Assembly: GCF_041821045.1 (NCBI RefSeq)
Contig: NZ_JBGUAW010000001.1
Coordinates: forward strand, 310,001 to 374,000
Source: Thiohalorhabdus sp. Cl-TMA
GTDB lineage: Bacteria; Pseudomonadota; Gammaproteobacteria; Thiohalorhabdales; Thiohalorhabdaceae
Direction of reading: 5' to 3'
Length of the DNA stretch: 64,000 bases
Shown here one piece after another: positions 5,701-42,500 of the stretch; the stretch's first letter is position 1; every line of letters starts with the position of its first letter. The notes under the pieces are model-generated. The model saw only the letters and a list, made by a program, of their open reading frames with translations, ran no database searches and was not told where the DNA came from. A program made the translations under genes and the position numbers.

Positions 5701-7287
5701 CTAGGGGATGGGGGCGAGGATATCGGTCCGGCGCCGGGGCGCGCGGAGCACCGACGCCAGGTGGGTGATCTCGGCGGAGAGGGGGCGGTCCCGCCGCAGC
5801 GGCGCGGCGTGCCCGCGCACCAGGCGGTGCAGGTCGCAGGCGGCGGTGGAGAAGTCGGCCCATCCCGTGCGCTCGGCGGTCAGCTCCATGGCCTGGGTCA
5901 GCGTCAGCGCCTGGATGGCCTGCACCTCGAACAACAGGCCCAGGAGGTCCGCCGCCTGCCGGGCGCCGATGGTGCCCATGGTGACCACGTCCTGGTTGTC
6001 GGCGTTGGTGGGGATGGACTGGATGGAGGCCGGGGTGGCCAGGCTCCGCATCTCCGCCACCAGCGCCGAAGCGGAGACCTGGGCGCCCATGAAGCCGCTC
6101 TGCAGGCCGGTTGCGTCGCCCTGCAAAAAGGCTGGCAGGTCGTTGTTCCGCACCGGGTCCGTGAGCCGGGCGACGACCCGCTCGCCGTGCACGGCGAGCT
6201 TGATGGCGGCGTTGGCCAGGGCATCCGAGGCGAAGGAAACGTGCTGGCCGTAGAAATTGCCGCCGTGCCAGACCTCCTCCACCTCGTGGGCGAAGACCGG
6301 GTTGTCGGTGACCGCCTGCAGCTCCCGCGTCACCGTCTGCGCGTGGAAGTCCAGGCTGTCGCGCACCGCGCCGAGGAGCTGGGGCGCGCAGCGGATGGTA
6401 TAGGGGTCCTGGGGCAGGGACTGGCCGGGCAGGACGCCCGCCCCCTCCTCCGGCAGGCCTTCCAGCGGCGGCGGGGGCTGACGGTCCGGCTGCAGCCGCC
6501 CGCTGTCGGCGGTCAGCGCGCCGAGGGCCCGGTGCGCCCAGGCCTGGCCGGGGTGGGGACGGACTTGCCCCAGCCCGGGGTTGAGGAATCCCGCATGGGC
6601 ACCGAACACCTCGGCATTGACGGCGGCCAGCAGGGCAGCCAGCTCCACGGCGCGGGCCGCCTCCGCCGCGTTCAGGGCGGCGATCCCGGTCATGGCGCTG
6701 GTGCCGTTGACCAGGGCCAGGGCGTCCCGCCCGGTGGGCACCAGGGGCGTCAGGCCGGCGGCTTCCAGGGCGCGGTCCGCGGGCTCCGGGCCCTCCGGCC
6801 CCACCATCTGCCCTTCCCCCATGACCGCCAGGGCCAGGTGGGAGAGCGGTGTCAGATCGCCGCTGGCGCCCACGGTGCCCCGGGCGGGGATGGCCGGCGC
6901 CAGATGGCCGTTCAGCACCGCCACCAGAAGATCCAGGGCCTCCGGACGGATGCCCGAGTGGCCGCGGGCCAGGCTCAGGATCCGGGTGGCCAGCACCGCG
7001 CGGGCGGTGGGCGGCGCCAGGGCTGGGCCCGTGCCGGTGGCCAGATGGTAGATCAGGTTCTTCTGGTGACGGCCGTCCTGGTGCCCCGCCACCCGGGTAT
7101 CGGCCAGGGGTCCGAACCCCGTGGTCAGCCCGTAGATGCGGCGGTTCTCGGCCTGCAGGCGGCCCACGAAGCGGTGGCTTTCGGCGACTCGGTGCCGGGC
7201 CTCCGCGTGGAGGGTGAGCCCTTCCTCACCGCGCGCGAGGCGCTCCACGTCCTCGGGCGTCGGGCAGCTATCGGGCCGGAGCTCCAC
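5701..7287 (-). CDS. Tyrosine ammonia-lyase for PYP chromophore synthesis
   Basis: A 528-residue member of the histidine/phenylalanine ammonia-lyase family. The Ala-Ser-Gly triad that cyclises to the MIO prosthetic group is at residues 141-143 within GTVGASGDLTPLSH. The substrate-selectivity pair is His81-Leu82 (NLIYHLATG); His-Leu is the signature known for tyrosine over phenylalanine (Phe-Leu) or histidine (Ser-His). The enzyme converts tyrosine to p-coumarate plus ammonia. The GTG start at 7287 overlaps the upstream ligase gene by 20 bases and has a GGGAGG site, showing translational coupling. Generic annotation would call it hutH, but the selectivity residues and the pyp context argue for TAL. 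Confidence 0.9.
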   Translation of the reverse strand: MELRPDSCPTPEDVERLARGEEGLTLHAEARHRVAESHRFVGRLQAENRRIYGLTTGFGPLADTRVAGHQDGRHQKNLIYHLATGTGPALAPPTARAVLATRILSLARGHSGIRPEALDLLVAVLNGHLAPAIPARGTVGASGDLTPLSHLALAVMGEGQMVGPEGPEPADRALEAAGLTPLVPTGRDALALVNGTSAMTGIAALNAAEAARAVELAALLAAVNAEVFGAHAGFLNPGLGQVRPHPGQAWAHRALGALTADSGRLQPDRQPPPPLEGLPEEGAGVLPGQSLPQDPYTIRCAPQLLGAVRDSLDFHAQTVTRELQAVTDNPVFAHEVEEVWHGGNFYGQHVSFASDALANAAIKLAVHGERVVARLTDPVRNNDLPAFLQGDATGLQSGFMGAQVSASALVAEMRSLATPASIQSIPTNADNQDVVTMGTIGARQAADLLGLLFEVQAIQALTLTQAMELTAERTGWADFSTAACDLHRLVRGHAAPLRRDRPLSAEITHLASVLRAPRRRTDILAPIP

Positions 7288-8485
7288 TGGGGGCCTCCCG
7301 CGGCGGATGGGGGGATGGTTCGGTGGGCTCCGGGGCAGTCCGCGTGGCGAAGGTCAGCAGGCGGGGACGCTGCGGCGCCGGGAGCTCGCCGTCGATCCAG
7401 CGCTGCAGCTCCGGGCGGGCGGTCTCCTCGCCCGGGGCATCGCCGGTGAGCACGATGTGCGCCTTGAGCCGCTGGCCCTCCTCCGGGGCCATGGGGCGGA
7501 CCGTGGCCTCCGCCACCCAGGCGTGCTCGCGCAGCCGGCGGGCGATCTCCCCCGGATGGACATTGGTCCCGCCCACCTGGACGGCGCCGTCGGCGCGGCC
7601 CTCGGGAATGAAGGTTCGGGCGCCCGTCCAGCGCAGGTGGTCCATGGGGCGGGCTTCCGCCGCGCCCTCGGTCCCGCGGTCGCGGAGGAGGCCCCCGTCC
7701 GGACCGGGGTTCCAATGGGCAAGCAGGGTGTAGGAGTCGCCGGGGCGGGTGCGGTAGCCCACGCCGCCGGTCTCGGTGGCACCGTATACCTCCAGCAGGG
7801 AATGGAGCCCCCGTTCCAGCAGGGTCTGGAAGACCGCCTCCGGCAGCGGCGCGGTGGAGCAGACGCCGCGCACCCCGGCGGGGAAGCGCTCATGGACGCT
7901 GGCCAGGTAGCGCCACCGCTCGGGAAAGGTAACCACCAGATCCCCGGCCTGGAGGTCCGAGTGGGCCGTGGCCCAGGCCGCCTCGCCGTCAAGCACGGGA
8001 ACGCCCCAGCGGTCGGGCAGGGCGGCGGTATAGAGGAAGCCGTAGATATGGTGGGCCGGCGCCAGGGCCACCACCCGCCGGACCTCCGGGAAGAGGTGCA
8101 CGAGGGCCTGCAGCTCGGCTTCCATGGCCTCCCACGGGTGGGTGATCAGCTTGGCGGGGCCGGTGGTCCCCGAGGTGCGGAAACCGATCCCGCTGGTTCC
8201 CTCCTTGAGGGCCTCGCGAACGACACCAACCCAATCGCCCAGGGTCCGGTAGCGCAGCAGGAAGTCCTCGATTCCCACCTCGTGAATACGGAAGCGCTCA
8301 TTGACGGCCGTGGCCAGGGTGGTGAGATCCAGGGAGTCGGCGCCTACCCGGTCGCCGTCGAGGGCGGTGGCCAGAGTCCAGGCGGCGGAATCCAGGGGCG
8401 TGGCGTCGGTGGCGTGGGTGTGCGGCAGCTCGTTGGTGACCAGGTCCCGCAGGACGCGGAACAGGGCGGATTCGGATAGAAGCAT
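7268..8485 (-). CDS. p-Coumarate:CoA ligase (AMP-forming) with carrier-like N-terminus
   Basis: This adenylate-forming enzyme of 405 residues would activate p-coumarate to the thioester used to load PYP. The P-loop-like TSGTTGPAK is at residues 104-112, followed by the VYGATETGG motif and an acidic C-terminal domain. Only about 100 residues precede the TSGTTG motif, fewer than in ordinary ANL ligases. Residues 48-67 contain GADSLDLTTLATAVNERFRI, which resembles an acyl-carrier-protein helix with a phosphopantetheinylation Ser (Ser51). The C-terminus is a Pro-rich tail. The ATG at 8485 has a GGAGG site 47 bases after the pyp stop, and the 3' end overlaps the TAL gene. The ligase call is firm; the carrier interpretation is inference. 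Confidence 0.88.
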   Translation of the reverse strand: MLLSESALFRVLRDLVTNELPHTHATDATPLDSAAWTLATALDGDRVGADSLDLTTLATAVNERFRIHEVGIEDFLLRYRTLGDWVGVVREALKEGTSGIGFRTSGTTGPAKLITHPWEAMEAELQALVHLFPEVRRVVALAPAHHIYGFLYTAALPDRWGVPVLDGEAAWATAHSDLQAGDLVVTFPERWRYLASVHERFPAGVRGVCSTAPLPEAVFQTLLERGLHSLLEVYGATETGGVGYRTRPGDSYTLLAHWNPGPDGGLLRDRGTEGAAEARPMDHLRWTGARTFIPEGRADGAVQVGGTNVHPGEIARRLREHAWVAEATVRPMAPEEGQRLKAHIVLTGDAPGEETARPELQRWIDGELPAPQRPRLLTFATRTAPEPTEPSPHPPREAPSGAPAR

Positions 8486-32720: not shown

Positions 32721-34586
32721 TTGCCCTCTTCTCCTGTTGAAACTGGCAATCTTGTCGTCTACAAACAGCAGCCCGCCCGCGTCCACGCGGTGGAGGGGGA
32801 CAAGCTCACCCTGCAGCTCCCGGACGGCGGTACCAAGCGGGTGCGGCCCAAGGATGTGCTGGTTCTCCATCCGGGTCCGGTGGCGGATATCCGGGCCCTG
32901 GATGCCGGGGCCGGGGAGATGGAGGAGGCCTGGGAGGCGTTGGCCGGGGAGTCGTTGAGCCTGGAAGACCTCGCGGAGCTGGCCTACGGGGCGTTCACCC
33001 CGGCCACGGCCTGGTCGAGCTGGCGGGAGGTGGCGGACGGCCTGCTGTTCGAGGGCGAGCCCGATGCCCTGGTGGCCCGCGAACGGGAGACCGTCGCCGC
33101 CGAGCGGGAGCGCCGCGAGACCAAGGCGCAGGCGGCGGCCGCCCGCAAGGCGCTTTTGGAGCGCCTGGTCGCCGGGGCCATGGCGCCCGGGGACGAGGAG
33201 GACCTGGCCGAGGTGGAGCGGTTGGCCCTCGGGGCCTCGCGGACCAGCTTCATCCTCCGGGAGCTGGGCCGGGAAGAGACCCCCGAGGAGGCGCACCGGC
33301 TGCTGCTGGCCAATGGCTACTGGGACGAGCTGACCAACCCCCACCCGGTCCGCGAGGGGGCACCGCAGGCAAGCGCCGAAGGGGAGGTGCCGCCGCTTAC
33401 GGAGGAGGCGCGCCGCGATCTCACCCACCTGGAAGCCTGGGCCATCGACGACGCCGGCAACACGGACCCGGACGACGCCCTCAGCCTGGACGGCGATCGC
33501 ATCTGGGTGCATATCGCCGACGTGGCCGCCGTGGCTCCGCCGGACGCCCCTCTGGATCTGGAAGCGCGCGAGCGCGGCGCCACCCTCTACCTGCCCGACG
33601 GCATGCGCACCATGCTGCCGCCGCCGGCCGTGGAGCGGCTGGGCCTGGGCCTGGCGGACACCTCGCCAGCCCTGTCGGTGGGCTTCCGGGTGGCGGAGGA
33701 CGGCGGCCTGACCGACATCGAAGTGGCGCCCAGCTGGGTGCGGGCCGCCCGCCTGTCCTACCAGGCGGCCGAAGAACGCATGGCGGAGGAACCGTTCGCC
33801 AGCCTCGCCGAGGCCGCGGAACGTTTCCGGCAGCGGCGGCGGGCCGACGGTGCAGTGGAGTTCCAGCTCCCCGAGGTCTCGGTGCGCCTGGAGGACGGCG
33901 AGGTGGTGATCCGCCCCATCGTTGAGCTGGCCAGCCGCCGCCTGGTGACCGAGGCCATGATCATGGCCGGCCACGCCGTGGCCCGCTTCGCCCAGCAGGA
34001 GGGCCTGGCCATCCCCTTCGCCACCCAGGAGGCCCCGCAGGGGAAAGCGGAGGGCGAGGGGCTGTTGCGGGCCTATGAGCTGCGGAAGCTCATGCGGCCC
34101 TCCCGGGTTCAGCTCACCCCCGAGCCCCATAGCGGTCTGGGCCTTTCCGCCTATGCCCAGGCCACCAGTCCCATGCGACGCTACTTTGACCTGGTGACCC
34201 ACCAGCAGCTGCGCGCCCATGTGGGCGGGGGACAGCCCGCCGACCAGGAAGCCCTGGCCCAGCGGGTCGCGGGCGTAGGCGAGCGGGTCCGAAGGCTGCG
34301 GCGGGCCGAACGGCTTTCCAATCAGCACTTCAAGCTGGTGCATCTTCAGCGTTACGGGGCATGGCAGGGGCAGGGCGTGGTGGTCGAGCGCAACGGGCCC
34401 AAGGGACGGGTGCTGGTCCCGGAGCTGGCCCTGGAGACCAGCGTCACCTTGCCCAAAACCACCGAGCCCGGGGCGGTGGTGACGCTGCAGCTGCTGGGTG
34501 TGGAGCTGCCGACCCTGGAGCCGCGCTTCCGGGCCGAAGAAGACGAGGTGGCCGGGCTCCGGTCCGATCTTCAGGCAGGGGCTTAG
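32721..34586 (+). CDS. RNB-domain ribonuclease (RNase II/R family)
   Basis: A 621-residue 3'-to-5' exoribonuclease-like protein. The catalytic Asp cluster is in AIDDAGNTDPDDALSL, followed by HIADVAA, and the S/T-rich QATSPMRRYFDLV motif marks the end of the RNB core. It has a helical region rich in Arg, Glu and Ala in the middle, and a degenerate N-terminal beta domain in place of ordinary cold-shock domains. The start is a TTG at 32721 without a strong ribosome site, exactly where the GC content returns to backbone level after the island. No RNase II or R symbol is given because the exact subfamily is unclear. Confidence 0.88.
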   Translation: MPSSPVETGNLVVYKQQPARVHAVEGDKLTLQLPDGGTKRVRPKDVLVLHPGPVADIRALDAGAGEMEEAWEALAGESLSLEDLAELAYGAFTPATAWSSWREVADGLLFEGEPDALVARERETVAAERERRETKAQAAAARKALLERLVAGAMAPGDEEDLAEVERLALGASRTSFILRELGREETPEEAHRLLLANGYWDELTNPHPVREGAPQASAEGEVPPLTEEARRDLTHLEAWAIDDAGNTDPDDALSLDGDRIWVHIADVAAVAPPDAPLDLEARERGATLYLPDGMRTMLPPPAVERLGLGLADTSPALSVGFRVAEDGGLTDIEVAPSWVRAARLSYQAAEERMAEEPFASLAEAAERFRQRRRADGAVEFQLPEVSVRLEDGEVVIRPIVELASRRLVTEAMIMAGHAVARFAQQEGLAIPFATQEAPQGKAEGEGLLRAYELRKLMRPSRVQLTPEPHSGLGLSAYAQATSPMRRYFDLVTHQQLRAHVGGGQPADQEALAQRVAGVGERVRRLRRAERLSNQHFKLVHLQRYGAWQGQGVVVERNGPKGRVLVPELALETSVTLPKTTEPGAVVTLQLLGVELPTLEPRFRAEEDEVAGLRSDLQAGA

Positions 34587-34627
34587 GGGCCGGTTGGGCC
34601 GGGCCCGGCGCATAGCCAAGATCCTGC

Positions 34628-34885
34628 TCAGCTCTTCGGCGGTTCGCCCCCGGTCTCCTCGGCCACCAGCTCCTGGATCAGGTAGCCCAGGTGGTCCAGG
34701 CCCTCCTGGAGCTCCCAGAAGAAATCCCCCTTTTCGTCGCCTTCCTCGGGGGCCTCGATTTCGCCCCATTGTTCGCGGAGGTCCTTGGCGTCGGCCTCCG
34801 GCTGGTCCGATTCCATGAGCAGGGTGGTGTAGAGCTGGGCGACGGCGTAGTTGAGGGCCTCGATCTGGCCGCGGTTGTCCGCCAT
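34628..34885 (-). CDS. Small acidic hypothetical protein
   Basis: An 85-residue acidic protein (MADNRGQIEALNYAVAQLYTTLL...) of unknown function. The start at 34885 is preceded by GGAGCACC and is the natural N-terminus, although the frame is open much farther upstream through the siaBC region. It is predicted helical with many Glu and Asp, without a signal or membrane segment. It is convergent with the RNB gene and divergent from siaB. Confidence 0.65.
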   Translation of the reverse strand: MADNRGQIEALNYAVAQLYTTLLMESDQPEADAKDLREQWGEIEAPEEGDEKGDFFWELQEGLDHLGYLIQELVAEETGGEPPKS

Positions 34886-35104
34886 GGGGTGCTCCTGGGC
34901 TGTGGTGTGCTGGTTGTCGGCTGGATTTTCCGTATTCCACCAGCAAGAAGGTCCGCGAATCCAGTCCTTCCTTACCCGGTCTATCGCCGCGCACCCGCAA
35001 ATGGTAGAAAGTACGGGCTCCCGGTGCGTGCCCGGTTGTCGGGTCGAAGGTCGGCCTGCTGCCCGGCCTCGCTCATGCACCTCCAGCCGGAAAGGAAACG
35101 GGGA

Positions 35105-35665
35105 ATGGCGAGTCTGGATCTGCTGGATCTGCGCGATCGGCTGAATGACTTCAATGCCTTGATGTCCTTCAACGGTCCGCTCTCGGAATCCATCATCAAG
35201 GACCTGGGGGATGCGGTTCGCCGCTACCTGGAGGAGGAGGCCGCCAGCCGCGCCACGGTCATGGACGTCTTCTCCGTGTTCATCGAGCAGACCCAGAACA
35301 TCCGGCAGTACGCCACCAGTCGCGGCGGGGATGATGCCGAGTTCTGGCTGCTTTCCTCCGCCATTTCCGTGATCTCCGCGAACAGCAGCAACTACTTCGT
35401 GAGCTCCGGGAACTGGGTGCGCGAGGCGGACCTGCCGGATCTGACCGCGCACCTGGACCGGCTGCGGTCCCTGGACGGCCCGGGACTGAAGAAGCTCTAC
35501 AAGGAGGTGCTGCGGTCCCCCGCCGCGGAGGGCGCCACCACCGCCGGTCTCGGCCTCATCGACATGGCGCGCAAATCCAGCCAGCCGCTCAGCTATTCGT
35601 GCCGGGAGCCCGACAGGGAATCCGAAAGGGGGTACGTATTCTTCAGCCTGCAGGCGACGCTGTAG
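35105..35665 (+). CDS. siaB: SiaB-type protein kinase
   Basis: A 186-residue protein of the SiaB/DUF6272 family, an atypical kinase that phosphorylates SiaC. The segment EEEAASRATVMDVFSVFIEQTQNIRQYA resembles the N-box of GHKL-type ATP-binding folds. It heads a siaBCD run with 15 and 22 base gaps. In Pseudomonas aeruginosa the kinase SiaB and the phosphatase SiaA set the phosphorylation of SiaC, which then controls the diguanylate cyclase SiaD and biofilm or aggregate formation. The ATG at 35105 follows AAAGGAAACGGGGA. Confidence 0.85.
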   Translation: MASLDLLDLRDRLNDFNALMSFNGPLSESIIKDLGDAVRRYLEEEAASRATVMDVFSVFIEQTQNIRQYATSRGGDDAEFWLLSSAISVISANSSNYFVSSGNWVREADLPDLTAHLDRLRSLDGPGLKKLYKEVLRSPAAEGATTAGLGLIDMARKSSQPLSYSCREPDRESERGYVFFSLQATL

Positions 35666-35680
35666 TATCGGGGGAGGAAA

Positions 35681-36061
35681 ATGGGCAACCTGTTTTACGA
35701 GGCGTCGGAGACGACCCCCGCCGTCATCCTGGATCGCGACCAGGGGCTCCTGGAGGTGCGCGGGGAGTCCTATCCGGAGAATGCCCTGGCGTTCTTCCAG
35801 CCGGTGGTGGAGGGAGTGGGGGGCTACCTGGCGCAGGGGAATCCGTCCCTGACCATCCGGATCGACCTGTCCTACCTCAATACCAGCAGCGTGAAGGCCC
35901 TCATGGATATCCTCGACCGGGCCGAGGAGGCCCATGAACGGGGCGCGGCCGTCGAGGTGGAATGGGTCTACGACGCCGAGAACGACCGCAGCCTGGAGAT
36001 GGCGGAAGAGCTGCGCGAGGATATGAGCCTTCCCTTCCGGGTTTCCCCGGTGAGCCGGTAA
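35681..36061 (+). CDS. siaC: SiaC switch protein
   Basis: A 126-residue DUF1987 protein. The segment SYLNTSSVKALMDILDRAE holds the phosphosite: Thr68 in LNTSS, identical in number to the described SiaC phosphosite. Unphosphorylated SiaC is known to bind and activate SiaD; phosphorylation by SiaB blocks this, and SiaA reverses it. The start at 35681 follows GGGGGAGGAAA. It lies between siaB and siaD. Confidence 0.92.
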   Translation: MGNLFYEASETTPAVILDRDQGLLEVRGESYPENALAFFQPVVEGVGGYLAQGNPSLTIRIDLSYLNTSSVKALMDILDRAEEAHERGAAVEVEWVYDAENDRSLEMAEELREDMSLPFRVSPVSR

Positions 36062-36083
36062 CCGTCCCTTCGGAGCTGGTGCC

Positions 36084-36806
36084 ATGACCAAGGAAAGCGA
36101 GGAGATCGCCAAGCGCCTGGCCGCGCTGGAGCGCGACCCGGCCTACCGGGACCATCCGCTCATGGCGGAGCTCAACCGCCTCGCGGAGCGCTTCTACAAG
36201 GTGGAGCGGCAGCTGCGCAAGGTCAGCCGCATCGGCGACCTGCTGCAGGCCCTGCTGCGTGAGGACAACGAGGCCTTCGAGCAGGCGGCGCTTACCGATC
36301 CGCTTACCGGCCTGCCCAACCGGCGCGCCATGCAGGAGCAGCTGGAGCTCGAGGCCGCCCGCGCCGAGCGGGAGGGAACTTGGCTCGTGGTGGGCATGGG
36401 GGACGTGGACCACTTCAAGGCCGTCAACGACAGCCATGGGCACGAAACCGGGGACACGGTGCTGCAGGAGGTGGCCAACCGCCTGGAGGGCGGCCTGCGG
36501 GAATACGACCAGTGCGCCCGCTGGGGCGGCGAGGAGTTCCTGGTTCTCTGCCCCGGCCTCTCGGCCGCCCAGGCGGTGCGTACCATGGAGCGGATCCGGG
36601 AGGCGGTCACCGGCGAGCCGGTGATGGGCGGAACGACGCCCATCCGCGTCAGCATCAGCTTTGGCGTGGCGGTGTATCAGCCCGGCGAGCAGGCGGACGA
36701 CCTTACCAGCCGGGCCGATGTGGCGCTCTACGAGGCCAAGCGCCAGGGCCGCAACCGCAGCGTCCTCGCGGGCGAGGACGCCCGCCATTTCTCCAGGGGC
36801 GACTAG
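36084..36806 (+). CDS. siaD: SiaD-type diguanylate cyclase
   Basis: A 240-residue soluble diguanylate cyclase that makes cyclic di-GMP. An N-terminal helix pair (residues 1-70, with KVERQLRKVSRIGDLLQALL) would be the SiaC-binding stalk. The GGDEF domain carries the active-site variant RWGGEEFLV at about residue 147. REYD five residues before GGEEF is an intact RxxD product-inhibition site. The start follows siaC by 22 bases. The 3' end overlaps the convergent siaA stop by four bases. Confidence 0.92.
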   Translation: MTKESEEIAKRLAALERDPAYRDHPLMAELNRLAERFYKVERQLRKVSRIGDLLQALLREDNEAFEQAALTDPLTGLPNRRAMQEQLELEAARAEREGTWLVVGMGDVDHFKAVNDSHGHETGDTVLQEVANRLEGGLREYDQCARWGGEEFLVLCPGLSAAQAVRTMERIREAVTGEPVMGGTTPIRVSISFGVAVYQPGEQADDLTSRADVALYEAKRQGRNRSVLAGEDARHFSRGD

Positions 36807-38887
36807 CCCCTTCGCCCGTCCGGCCCGGTCGCCCGGGGAGATGGCCGGAACCCCAGCACCGTCACGTCGTCCCGCTGTTCCCGCTCGCCCTGCCACTCGG
36901 CGAGGGCCTCGACCAGCGCGGCGCGCTGGTCCGCCAGGGAGGTCTCCGCCTGCTCCGCCAGCAGGGTCCGCAGCCGTTGCCGCCCGAACGGCAGCCCCTT
37001 GGGGCCCCCGCCCTGGTCCAGGAAGCCGTCCGTGGCCAGATAGAAGGTATCGCCCGCCTCCACCGCCACGTCGTGCTCCGTGAAGCGGTGCCCCGGGTCG
37101 GCGGCCCGGTAGCCGAGCCCGGTGCGGTCCCCCGCCCATTCCTCGATTTCGCCGGCCCGGGCCCGGTACAGGGAGAGCCGGGTGGCCGCGAAGCGGAGCG
37201 TGTCCGCTCCCGGCTCCCAGCGGCACAGCGCCATCTCCAGGCCGTTGTCCGAGCCGCGCGTATCGGCCCCGTCCGATTCAGGGTTGAGCATGTCCCGCAG
37301 CTCCCGGTTGAGGCTGGCCAGGATGGGCCCGGGACTGCGCAGTCCACCCCGGTCCACCGCGTGGTTGAAGGCGGAATGGGCGGCCATGACGGTGACCGCG
37401 CCGGGCACCCCGTGTCCGGTGCAGTCCATCACGCCGACCAGCAATCCGTCGCCTGCCTGCCGGATCACGTAGAGGTCGCCGCCCACCCGGTCGCGGGGCA
37501 GCCACAGGGCGAAGTGCTCCAGCGGCAGCCCCTCCAGGGACCCGGGTCCGGGCAGCAGCGCCTCCTGGATGCGCCGGGCGCTGCTGATGCTTTCCAGGAG
37601 CATGCGATTGGTGCGACCCAGTGCGGTGTTGGCCTCCTGGAGGTCCGCGGTGCGCTCACGGACCCGCTCCTCCAGGGAGCCCGTGTATTCCTGCACGGTG
37701 CGCGCCATGTTGTTGAAGGTGTGGGCCAGGGTGCCCAGCTCGTCGCGGCGGTCCTCCGGCAGCTGGGTGTCGTATTCGCCCCGGGCAACCCCTTCCGCGG
37801 CGCGGGCGAGCCCCGCCACCGGCTGCAGCAGGAAGCGGTTGAACAGGAGGCCGAGCAGGGCCAGGGCGAGCAGCAGGGCCACCACGAGCACCCCCGCCAC
37901 CGCCAGGAACTCCGGCCAGCCCAGCACCGCCTGGGGGTCTAGGCTGGCCAGGGTGAACCAGTCCAGCTCGGGCAGGTAGGCGAGCGCCGCCAGCCGGGGA
38001 CGCCCGTCCAGCGTCAAGGGAAAGGTGGCCAGCCGCTGCTCGCCGGTCCGGAGCCGTTCCATGTGCCGCCGGACGGCAGGCCGCTGTCCGTCCGGTATGT
38101 GTCCCCACAGGGCGGTCCGGCCCGCGCCCGTGCCGGTGACCTGGGCATTCAGGGCGATATTGTCCACGTTCTCATGGCCCTGGATGGCGCCCTTGCGGTT
38201 GAGGAGGATGGCCTGCAGGCCGGGTTCCTCGGTCTGCACGAACTGCCGCACGAAGTGGCTGATGTCCACGCCGGTGCCCGCCACCCCCAGCCGGGCGTCG
38301 CCGTCCCGCATGATGACGTTGAACCAGACCTTGGTCTCCCGCAGCTCCCGGTTGAAATCCACGTTCAGGTGGTAGGGAGCCTCCCCTTCCAGGGCGTCGA
38401 AGAACCAGCTGTCCTTGGGGTCGCTGCGGCTCAGGGTCTGGGTTATCCGCGGCGGCGCTTCGTCCCCGCCCTCCGGCCCCTTGAAGTAGTAGTGGCCGGA
38501 ATCCGCCAGGACCACGAAGTAGGAATCGCCGGAGAACAGGTCGCGGAGGGAGGCCAGCTCGTCGAGCGCCGCCGCCCGGGCGGCCGGGTCCTCCTCCGCA
38601 CGGGCCCAGCGCTGCACGGGCGGGGAATCGGCCAGGCGCCGGGCCAGGGTCAGCTCCCGCTGCATGAAGCCCTCCACCCGCGCCTTGTGGCCCAGTACGT
38701 AGCGCTCGGCCACGGAGTAGCCGAGCTTCTCGGCGATGTTGCCGCCCACCACGTAGAGCGAGCCCAGGCTCACCGCGCCGATGAGCAGGGACACCAGGGC
38801 AACCACCGCCAGGCTCCGGCCCCGGATGCCGAGTCCGGCGATCCGCCCTTGCCCGGAAGGCAACGCCGTTTCCGTCCGTTTCCCCAT
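36803..38887 (-). CDS. siaA: SiaA-type membrane PP2C phosphatase
   Basis: A 694-residue membrane protein. Transmembrane segments at about residues 24-48 and 322-348 enclose a periplasmic sensor domain of the dCache type (YFVVLADSGHYYF...DPKDSWFFDALEG). A HAMP domain follows, then a coiled-coil linker and a C-terminal SpoIIE/PP2C phosphatase with DRVGGDLY, MDCTGHGVPGA and YLATDGFLDQGG metal-binding motifs. It would dephosphorylate SiaC in response to an extracellular signal. In the known operon siaA is first and co-directional; here it is on the opposite strand and convergent with siaD. Confidence 0.92.
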   Translation of the reverse strand: MGKRTETALPSGQGRIAGLGIRGRSLAVVALVSLLIGAVSLGSLYVVGGNIAEKLGYSVAERYVLGHKARVEGFMQRELTLARRLADSPPVQRWARAEEDPAARAAALDELASLRDLFSGDSYFVVLADSGHYYFKGPEGGDEAPPRITQTLSRSDPKDSWFFDALEGEAPYHLNVDFNRELRETKVWFNVIMRDGDARLGVAGTGVDISHFVRQFVQTEEPGLQAILLNRKGAIQGHENVDNIALNAQVTGTGAGRTALWGHIPDGQRPAVRRHMERLRTGEQRLATFPLTLDGRPRLAALAYLPELDWFTLASLDPQAVLGWPEFLAVAGVLVVALLLALALLGLLFNRFLLQPVAGLARAAEGVARGEYDTQLPEDRRDELGTLAHTFNNMARTVQEYTGSLEERVRERTADLQEANTALGRTNRMLLESISSARRIQEALLPGPGSLEGLPLEHFALWLPRDRVGGDLYVIRQAGDGLLVGVMDCTGHGVPGAVTVMAAHSAFNHAVDRGGLRSPGPILASLNRELRDMLNPESDGADTRGSDNGLEMALCRWEPGADTLRFAATRLSLYRARAGEIEEWAGDRTGLGYRAADPGHRFTEHDVAVEAGDTFYLATDGFLDQGGGPKGLPFGRQRLRTLLAEQAETSLADQRAALVEALAEWQGEREQRDDVTVLGFRPSPRATGPDGRRG

Positions 38888-39078
38888 GTATTCCCCGCCC
38901 GCTCCGCGAATTCGCGCCTGGCGCGCCCCGCGAGTAGCGTAAGGGGGAAGCGGCTCCGGGTCGAGCGCCGCGGCATTTACGGATGCGATCCGGGAACGTC
39001 GGGGAATGGCCCAAGGGGGGCGCGGCTGTGTTACTGCTGGAAGGACAAGCCAAGCCGCACCTACCGGAGGAGGCCTCC

Positions 39079-39333
39079 ATGTCGGAAGAGCGGAACGAAT
39101 CCGCCGAGAACCTGGCGGCGCTGCGGCAGGAGCTCGCCGCCCAGCGGGCCGTGCTGGCGAGCCTGGCCACGCACCTGATCCTCACCGCCGACAACAAGCA
39201 TTCCATGCTCGAGCAGGTGTTCACCGAGGCCCTCGATAACGTGGAGCGCTCGGTGCCGCACACGGATACGGACCGGGAAGCCATTCTCGACAAGGTGCAC
39301 GAGCTGGCGGACCTGGTGCAGCACGGGGAGTAA
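39079..39333 (+). CDS. Small hypothetical protein beside siaA
   Basis: An 84-residue protein of unknown function with a strong GGAGGAGG site before the ATG at 39079. The sequence is charged and helical (LAALRQELAAQRAVLASLATHLILTADNKHSMLEQVFTEAL). It has no Cys, signal or membrane segment. It is divergent from siaA across about 190 bases. Translation signals and composition make it likely to be expressed. Confidence 0.65.
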   Translation: MSEERNESAENLAALRQELAAQRAVLASLATHLILTADNKHSMLEQVFTEALDNVERSVPHTDTDREAILDKVHELADLVQHGE

Positions 39334-39338
39334 GGGGC

Positions 39339-39590
39339 CGGAGCGACTCGCGGAGCCGGGGGCCGCTCCCACGATCCAGCTTCCATGCCGATGAAGGATT
39401 CCAGCGGGCTCGCGGGCTACTGGCCGATCCTGCTTTCCGGCTCACAAGGGCCTCTGTGGGAGCGGCCTCCGGCCGCGACCGCGATCAGCCCTGGCGCCTC
39501 ATCGGGCCTCGAGCCTATGCCATGGCTTTTTTCGGGGCCGGGAGGCCCCTCCTACAGGGCGCCATTGCCCACCGGCCCCTTTATGGGAGC
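39339..39590. repeat. Cluster of GGGAGCGGC-type palindromic repeats
   Basis: The gap between the small gene and putA holds several copies of a REP-like core: GGGGGCCGCTCCCACG near 39357-39373, TGTGGGAGCGGCCTCCGGCC near 39455-39475, GGGAGGCCCCTCCTACAGGG near 39540-39558, and TATGGGAGCGCC near 39582. The same GGAGCGGCC core forms the palindrome between queA and tgt. No protein gene is supported here. The cluster may act as a terminator region for putA on the minus strand or be a site of REP-associated mobility. Confidence 0.65.
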
Positions 39591-39593
39591 GCC

Positions 39594-42500
39594 CTATCCG
39601 TACCGACCTCCGAGCAGGGTGGCGTTGCCGCCCACGGCGGCGATGTTGTCGGTAACGGTCTTTTCGTGGAGGAAGCGGGTCAGGTAGTGGGGGCCGCCGG
39701 CCTTGGGACCGGTGCCGGAGAGCCCCCGGCCGCCGAAGGGCTGGACCCCCACCACGGAGCCGATGATGTCGCGGTTGATGTAGACGTTGCCGGCATTGGC
39801 CCGCTCGGCCACGTAGCGGGCGGTCTCCTCCACGCGGGAATGCACGCCCAGGGTCAGGCCGTAGCCGGTGCCGTTTATGGCGGCGATGACGCGGTCCAGC
39901 TCTCCGGCACGGTAGCGGACCACGTGGAGTATGGGGCCGAACACCTCGCCGGGCAGGGCCTCGAGCTCGGGCAGCTCGTAGATGCGGGGCCCGAAGAAGC
40001 TGCCGGGCGGCGCCCCGGGGAGCGGATCGGTCCAGGCCACCAGCCGCGCCTCGGCATCCAACCGCCGGGCGTGCTCCGCCAGCTCGGCGCGGGCGTTTTC
40101 GTCGATCACCGGCCCCAGATCCGTATCCAGCCGGGCGGGGTCGCCTACCCGGAGCTCCGCGGTGGCCCCGGCGATGGCCGCCAGCATGGCATCGGCCACC
40201 TCCTCCTGCAGGAACAGCACCCGCAGCGCCGAGCAGCGCTGGCCCGCGCTGTTGAAGGCGGAGCGCACCACGTCCCTGGCCACCTGCTCCGGCAGGGCGG
40301 AGCTGTCCGCGATCAGGGCGTTGACCCCGCCGGTCTCGGCGATCAAGGGCACCAGCGGCCCGTCGCGCTCGGCCAGGGCGTGCTGGATGTGCCGCGCCGT
40401 TCCGGTGCCGCCGGTGAGGGCCACTCCGGCCAGGCGCGGATCGCCGAGAATGGCCGGACCCAGCGCGCCGCTCGGCCCGGGCAGGAACTGCAGGGCGCTG
40501 TCGGGCACGCCTGCCTCCGCCAGCAGCTCGATGATGCGCATGGCGGTCAGGGGCGTGGCCCGCGCCGGCTTGGCCACCACCGTATTGCCCGCCACCAGGG
40601 CGGCGGCGATCTGCCCGGTGAAGATGGCGGCGGGGAAGTTCCAGGGGCTGATGCACAGGAATGCGCCGCGGCCCTCCGCCCGCAGCGCGTTGCGCTCGCC
40701 GGTGGGGCCCGGAAGGGGCCGCTCGGCGAGCTGATCGCGCGCCATGGCGGCGTAGTAGCGGCAGAAATCGGCGGCCTCGCGCACCTCGGCCAGGGCATCG
40801 GGCACGGTGCGGCCGCCCTCCCGGATGATGCGCGCCATGAGTCCGGCTCGCTCGGTCTCGATCCGGTCCGCCGCCCGCTCCAGTATCGAGGCCCGCTCCT
40901 CCACCGGCGTGCGGCACCAGGCCGGGAAGGCCTCGGCGGCCCCGGCCATGGCGGCCGTGGCCTGCTCCGCGCCCGCCTCGGCCACCGTGCCGGCGGTGAT
41001 GCGATGGTCCGCGGGGGCGGTGACCGCGTGCTCGGAGCCCGGAAGCCGACGGCCGTCGATGCGCGGCGTCGCCCGCCAGGGCGCTCCGGCCCAGGCCGTC
41101 CGGAGGGTGCCGTCCAGCTGCGCCAGCACGTCCGGATCGTCGCGCGGCAGGCCGGCGGAGTTGGCGCGGTCGGGATAGATATCGCGGGGCAGTGGCAGCG
41201 CCGGTCCCTCCGTGTCGCCCGAGCGCCAGGTCTCCACCGGGTCCGCGAGCAGCGCTTCCGGCTCGGCCCGCTTGTCGGCGATGCGGTTGATGAAGGAGGA
41301 ATTGGCGCCGTTCTCCAGGAGGCGGCGCACCAGGTAGGGCAGCAGCTCGCGGTGGCCCCCCACCGGTGCGTAGACCCGGCACGGCAGGCCCCAACCGTCC
41401 ACCACCGTGTCGTACAGCCCGGCACCCATGCCGTGGAGGCGCTGGAATTCGTAGTCGGCCTCCGCGCCCATGAGCTCGTAGACCGCGGCGATGGTGTGGG
41501 CGTTGTGGGTGGCGAACTGCGGGAAGACGCGCCCGCCCAGCTCGGCCAGCCGCCGGGCGCAGGCCAGGTAGGAGATGTCGGTGTGGGTCTTGCGGGTGAA
41601 CACCGGATAGTCGCTGAGCCCCTCCTGCTGGGCGCGCTTGATCTCCGTGTCCCAGTAGGCGCCCTTCACCAGCCGCACCGGGATGCGCGCGCCGCGCCGC
41701 CCGGCCTGCTCACCCACCCAGTCGAGCACCGGCAGGGCGCGCTTCTGGTAAGCCTGCACCGCCAGGCCCACCCCCTCCCAGTCCGCCAGCTCGGGATCGC
41801 GGAAGGCGGCCTCCAGCACGTCCAGAGAGGGCTCCAGGCGCTCCGCCTCCTCGGCGTCCACGGTCACCGGTATGCCTGCAGTGCGGGCACGGTAGAGCAG
41901 GTCCAGGAGCCGGGGCGTCAGCTCCTCGCGCACTCGCAGGCTCTGGGAGCGCTCGAAGCGGGGATGGAGGGCGGAGAGCTTGATGGAGATGCCCGGCCGG
42001 GCCAGCAGGGGCTGCCCGGCCTCCGTCGCCATGCCGGCGGCGTAGGCGGCGCGCCGATAGGCCGATATGTAGGCCTGGGCGTCCGTCTCGCTCACCGCCG
42101 CCTCGCCGAGCATGTCGAAGGAATGGCGGTAGCGCCGGTTCTCGCCGGTGCGGGCGCGCTGCAGGGCCTCGCCAATGTGGCGGCCCATGACGAACTGCCG
42201 GGCCAGGAGGTGCATGGCCTGCTTGAGGGCGCTGCGGACCACGGGCTCGCTGCTGCGGCCCAGGATGGGTCCGAGCAGGCCGCTCGGGCGGCTGTCGAGG
42301 CCCGGGCTCAGGCCGACCAGGCGCCCGGTGAGCATGAGCCCCCAGGTGGAGGCGTTTACCAGCAGGGAGGCGCTGTGGCCCAGGTGGCGGTCCCAGTCGG
42401 CGCTGCCGAGCTTGTCGTGGATGAGGCGGTCGGCGGTTTCGGTGTCGGGGATGCGCAGCAGCCCCTCCGCCAGGCACATGAGCAGCACCCCCTCCTGGCT

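Follow-up and report, generated by a model that had tools for sequence, protein, structure and literature searches.

In Pseudomonas aeruginosa, the genes of the Sia partner switch lie in a single siaABCD operon (PMC7647112, PMC12834913), and the complex they encode places four SiaC on two SiaD, with two docking motifs per SiaD stalk (PMC8457831); both points are cited from excerpts of these reports. We analyzed a related locus in Thiohalorhabdus sp. Cl-TMA, contained in a 64,000-nucleotide stretch of contig NZ_JBGUAW010000001.1 (positions 310,001 to 374,000; hereafter the window). Here siaB, siaC and siaD share one strand, and siaA meets them from the other (Table 1). We consider it probable that the locus encodes a partner switch of the Sia type, divided between two transcription units that converge, with siaBCD as one unit, siaA under its own promoter, a SiaD with a single docking motif, and a gene order produced by inversion of siaBCD. 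The original prediction, made from the sequence of this stretch, had placed siaB, siaC (with Thr68) and siaD together, set siaA opposite with a four-base overlap of stop codons, and contrasted this with the co-directional genes of the studied system; the reading frames, families, Thr68, shared CTAG and P. aeruginosa gene order all agree with that description.

Table 1. Features of the sia locus, in window coordinates
Feature	Position	Strand	Description	Reference or basis
siaB	35105-35665	+	SiaB-family protein kinase, 186 residues, Glu61 present	PF19788, NF038262
siaC	35681-36061	+	SiaC-family phosphoprotein (DUF1987), 126 residues	PF09345, 6kko
SiaC Thr68 codon	35882-35884	+	ACC; phosphosite within NTSS
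siaD	36084-36806	+	diguanylate cyclase, 240 residues, GGEEF active site, RxxD I-site	PF00990, 7e6g
SiaC-docking motif of SiaD	36207-36269	+	single motif of the stalk, residues 42-62	alignment to the proximal P. aeruginosa SiaD motif
CTAG	36803-36806		common to the stop codons of siaD (+) and siaA (-)
siaA	36803-38887	-	PP2C phosphatase, 694 residues; N-terminal sensor region, HAMP and SpoIIE
Block absent from congener	34888-39063		present in the window, absent from G001	flank alignment

The four proteins were assigned by profile and structure-database matches. SiaB matched PF19788 (4.6e-38) and NF038262 (175 bits, cut-off 85), SiaC matched PF09345 (5.7e-37; 126.5 bits, cut-off 24.5), and SiaD matched the GGDEF family PF00990 (1.5e-47), with NF038266 as its best specific model. 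SiaA combined HAMP and SpoIIE domains, with NF038263 as its best model (1.9e-177), and its residues 71-241 matched the chemoreceptor sensor 8bmv (9.3e-10). The best sequence matches in the Protein Data Bank (PDB) were the P. aeruginosa Sia proteins themselves: 6kko for SiaC (2.8e-30), chain A of 6kko for SiaB (3e-36), 7e6g for SiaD (5.2e-55) and 6k4e for the PP2C domain of SiaA (1e-59). A genome-wide search returned one PF09345 place, one PF19788 place and one SiaD-like stalk.

Residues known to matter in P. aeruginosa are largely retained. Position 68 of SiaC is Thr, as it is in two Azospirillum SiaC, and 10 of the 14 residues named for the SiaC–SiaD interface in an excerpt of PMC8457831 are identical (Y31, Y65, N67, T68, S69, M75, D79, R103, E110 and D114). 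SiaB keeps Glu61, the predicted catalytic residue according to an excerpt of PMC7647112, which also names SiaA active-site residues. The PP2C motifs VGGD, MDCTGHG, TDG and QRDD are present in SiaA, which carries the metal-binding Asp residues of a HAMP–PP2C phosphatase, and SiaD has GGEEF and RxxD as in P. aeruginosa. The likeness to the described SiaABCD system (PMC7647112, PMC8457831) thus spans the four protein families, Thr68, the catalytic residues, most of the SiaC interface, GGEEF and the I-site. Unlike in that system, siaA is convergent rather than first in an operon, and SiaD has one docking motif rather than two.

By homology, SiaB would phosphorylate SiaC at Thr68, and SiaA would dephosphorylate it upon a signal sensed by the SiaA N-terminal region. 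Unphosphorylated SiaC would bind the SiaD stalk and switch on synthesis of cyclic diguanylate (c-di-GMP), a biofilm signal. The short intergenic gaps, 15 nucleotides between siaB and siaC and 22 between siaC and siaD, are consistent with a siaBCD operon that would be transcribed as one unit. Since siaA lies on the opposite strand, transcription of the phosphatase would be separate from that of the kinase, presumably from its own promoter, and transcription, in addition to the SiaA sensor, could set the phosphatase-to-kinase ratio. The split order would offer a natural case of such transcriptional setting. Two elements appear to be new: separate phosphatase transcription, suggested by orientation, and the single docking site, suggested by sequence. 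We found neither a single-motif SiaD nor an opposed siaA treated in the titles and abstract openings of those open-licence PMC papers on the Sia system that were among the matches listed.

To place the gene order, we compared 158 SiaC loci, assembled from sets of 80, 12 and 66. The 80 named loci were not drawn at random but ranked highest, out of at least 591, in similarity to the SiaC of the window; siaA was upstream on the same strand in 72, downstream on the same strand in seven and missing from one. Ten of the 12 came from a class search of 369 genomes and two from plasmids (two of the 19 plasmid records with a match were read), three of the 12 belonging to one genome (G219); here, siaA was upstream in nine, downstream in two and convergent in one (L019). 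The last 66 were retained from 70 places in 397 genomes drawn from the phylum, several genomes giving two or three places; the four excluded were the window itself (G000), a locus already included (G163, identical to L015), a fragment (G477) and one place that was overlooked (G410). In this set, siaA was upstream in 33, downstream in 13, divergent in five, convergent in one (L175) and missing from 14. The fifteen loci counted as missing siaA are those with no siaA within reach, some of them on short contigs. An opposed siaA is rare: where siaD adjoins siaC (111 of 158 loci), siaA was present in 108 and opposed in 0/108, and in the 47 loci without an adjacent siaD it was present in 35 and opposed in seven (two convergent, five divergent). 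Across the 158 loci examined and the window, an opposed siaA in a SiaD-type locus was seen in the window alone. The seven SiaB–SiaC loci resemble it in having siaA opposed (L019 and L175 convergent; L171, L182, L188, L208 and L214 divergent) and differ in having no SiaD.

The second departure from P. aeruginosa lies in the SiaD stalk. The window SiaD has one SiaC-docking motif, with a distance of 48 from the HPL element to GGDEF compared with 80 in most tandem types, and a 32-residue gap appears in alignment. An AlphaFold2 model shows a single stalk helix over residues 25-68 (mean predicted local distance difference test score 90.5) with the docking motif inside it, and 7e6g is the best PDB match by fold as well as by sequence. 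Sequence and model together suggest a GGDEF cyclase with a SiaC-docking stalk. With one docking motif, the active complex is predicted to be SiaC2:SiaD2 instead of SiaC4:SiaD2. Single-motif SiaD loci from Azospirillum, Tolumonas and others likewise have one motif and a distance of 48, and two Tolumonas SiaD share the RIGD variant of the window protein; unlike in the window, siaA in these loci is upstream and co-directional. According to an excerpt of PMC8457831, mutation could not tell apart what each SiaC site on P. aeruginosa SiaD does. A natural single-site SiaD, in a group where non-tandem stalks are the rule, would make the question of the two roles directly testable.

Stalk architecture follows the SiaC and SiaA trees closely. 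Once 47 loci without SiaD and 29 whose SiaD was unclassable by pattern had been set aside from the 158 loci and the window, 83 rows were classed: 62 tandem and 21 non-tandem, the latter comprising six split and 15 single rows that include the window, L104 despite a second, distant motif, and four spirochaete rows without the HPL element (L027, L044, L046 and L097). Five of the 29 unclassed SiaD, all from Azospirillum (L038, L039, L042, L061 and L081), show the single pattern. An earlier version of the pattern, applied to 87 loci, had given 54 tandem, 21 single, five split and seven other; it was later loosened to shorter spacing, which made L100 tandem. On the SiaC tree, the tandem rows form one side of one branch (62 against 21 rows; one change; FastTree support 99), compared with 18.9 changes on average for shuffled labels, none of 500 shuffles being as low as observed. 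One change also suffices on the SiaA tree (59 against 21 of 80 rows), given that L054 was manually moved from the tandem to the split class once it had been read; before that, two were needed. Both trees are unrooted and do not set the direction, single to tandem or the reverse.

These patterns invite a broader, tentative reading. There may be two old Sia lineages distinguished by their docking stalk, the window belonging to the single-docking (2:2) one, with the tandem (4:2) form having arisen a single time, through duplication of a 32-residue repeat in the stalk. SiaC would then be a general adaptor whose docking motif also occurs on histidine kinases beside siaBC, and the phosphatase of the window would have been freed from co-transcription. 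Two widely separated stalk motifs were seen in the SiaD-like proteins of L032, L052, L054, L059, L074, L095 and L104; in those read (L032, L054, L059 and L104), a CPxC segment lies between the motifs.

How the order arose can be approached from the genus and from the SiaA tree. Neither G001 nor G002, the two other genomes of the genus that were examined, gave a SiaC match, G002 being 82% complete, and no close relative carrying the locus was found among the genomes examined. In G001, the flanks are preserved: window positions 34887 and 39064 correspond to 16566 and 16732 of L111, so that the aligned ends are 165 bp apart in G001 and 4,176 bp apart in the window. The cluster was gained or lost as one block of about 4.2 kb between these two genomes, G001 being the one informative congener. 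The G+C content at third codon positions is 0.88-0.92 in the block, the same as in neighboring genes. Small divergent genes flank the block at 39079-39333 and 34628-34885, both kept in G001; the former had no Pfam or NCBIfam match.

The order appears most likely to have arisen through a single inversion of the siaBCD segment within an ABCD operon. If the BCD segment of A>B>C>D> is inverted once, the result is A> <D <C <B, which read from the other strand is B> C> D> <A; this takes one step, against two for moving and flipping siaA, and is therefore the simplest route. An in-place flip of siaA in ABCD would give a divergent order, so the original description of siaA as the inverted gene probably names the wrong move. 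On the SiaA tree (89 rows, built by a quick method), the window belongs to a group of 20 rows, made up of ABCD loci from Tolumonas, Opitutia, Geobacteraceae, Acidobacteria, spirochaetes and others, and a branch with support 100 parts it from seven of the eight BCDA rows. Two other routes were considered. A BCDA operon with a flipped siaA is possible in principle and is disfavored by the seven BCDA rows beyond that branch, with L021 excepted. As for a flip of siaA in place by a site-specific element, no long, well-matched inverted pair bounding siaA was seen among the 25 longest pairs in 34500-40500. That region holds 96 inverted pairs, the 25 longest being of 18-30 nucleotides and 71-94% complementary; seven have arms of 25-30 nucleotides at 71-81% complementarity.

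Several results weigh against our proposal of two converging units with a single-docking SiaD. All four proteins score under the cut-offs of the NCBIfam equivalogs, unlike the P. aeruginosa type (SiaA 591.7 against 700, SiaB 160 against 225, SiaC 142.2 against 150, SiaD 235 against 290), and would on this basis be relatives of the named proteins outside the equivalog families. Four SiaC interface residues have changed (Q10, D29, I71 and L107 to E, E, V and M), and the proximal SiaD docking motif keeps seven of its 13 named residues, the other six differing, in an alignment read by eye. One of the six is Ser82 of P. aeruginosa SiaD, whose side chain bonds SiaC Thr68; it corresponds to Gly51 in the window, a replacement shared with two Tolumonas SiaD. 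Neither strand of 34500-39600 showed a sigma-70-like promoter, so the case for separate promoters is one of gene orientation. The trees also carry weak points: long branches meet at the window row of the SiaC tree, as the tree warning indicates; the window rows sit on long branches, and the nearest SiaA in the tree is 39% identical; the 20-row group has support 93, under the 95 mark; and L021, the eighth BCDA row, shares the window's side of the SiaA tree, on a very long branch.

Among the alternatives, it is quite conceivable, if short of probable, that an ordinary rearrangement was fixed by drift, the order having no regulatory meaning and the switch operating as it does in P. aeruginosa. 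Such an explanation is compatible with the proposed biochemistry and the single docking site and denies only that the order matters. It gains from the absence of the block in a congener, from the variation of siaA order in the family (same-strand upstream or downstream, and opposed in seven loci without siaD) and from the frequency of short convergent overlaps. Against it, siaA is always co-directional in the 108 SiaD-type loci, which suggests selection for co-transcription.

The original prediction had further proposed that the arrangement allows the two transcripts to interfere, which could make the switch bistable. Separation of phosphatase from kinase expression, its first element, follows from the orientation; the antisense element finds no support, as nothing in the sequence shows read-through. 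A bistable switch is very unlikely; in such a scheme, collision or antisense RNA would let the opposing siaBCD and siaA transcripts repress one another, locking cells in a kinase-high or phosphatase-high state. The coding regions do converge without a gap, and the two terminator-like sites in 34500-39600 (1.9 expected by shuffling) are both away from the junction, so that the transcript ends probably overlap. However, siaA read-through would reach siaD first rather than siaB, and the tight overlap is not conserved, with a 43-nucleotide gap in L019 and intervening genes in L175. The four-base overlap itself is ordinary and needs no special explanation because overlapping prokaryotic genes most often share 4 bp, CTAG being among the four possible convergent tetramers (excerpt of PMC2174442), and because two of 45 convergent pairs on the same 449 kb contig overlap by exactly four nucleotides, the window pair included (five overlap in all), as called on this one contig by a home-made codon-score gene caller that misplaces some starts (siaA at 38806).

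Some structure was seen at the junction. A 6-bp hairpin without a T tract (AGGGGC-GACTA-GCCCCT, 36795-36811) is centered on the shared stop and could be a weak two-way terminator or a product of chance in GC-rich DNA. The surrounding 121 nucleotides fold somewhat better than shuffled sequence (z of -1.8 and -2.4 on the two strands, with 8 and 7 of 200 shuffles as good), partly owing to another hairpin inside siaD. An assembly error that flipped siaA or siaBCD is hardly credible, since for all that the assembly is a draft of 45 contigs and no relative turned up with a matching order, four intact reading frames run up to the shared CTAG, the locus lies inside a 449 kb contig with both flanks matching the congener in the same order, and 34500-40500 showed no long exact inverted repeats to mislead an assembler.

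Beyond the proposed split switch, some loci point to SiaC partners other than SiaD. Unlike the window, the Azospirillum plasmid loci L013 and L014 have a HAMP histidine kinase gene (6414-7349 in both) between siaC and siaD. The strict docking-motif pattern was found in histidine kinases of none of the 47 loci without SiaD, 12 of which had a kinase-like open reading frame, and the kinase beside L171 has no stalk motif. With a relaxed pattern, five of 13 histidine kinase frames on the siaC strand, in loci without SiaD (L019, L175, L176, L181 and L206), show a single RxSDxxQ-like motif in the stalk ahead of the H-box, compared with 0.22 expected by shuffling; the motif was relaxed and the kinase test loosened after the strict pattern missed L019 and L175, which makes this a lead rather than a test. 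In L019 and L175, the output is likely a histidine kinase with a stalk motif, and SiaC may also control kinases.

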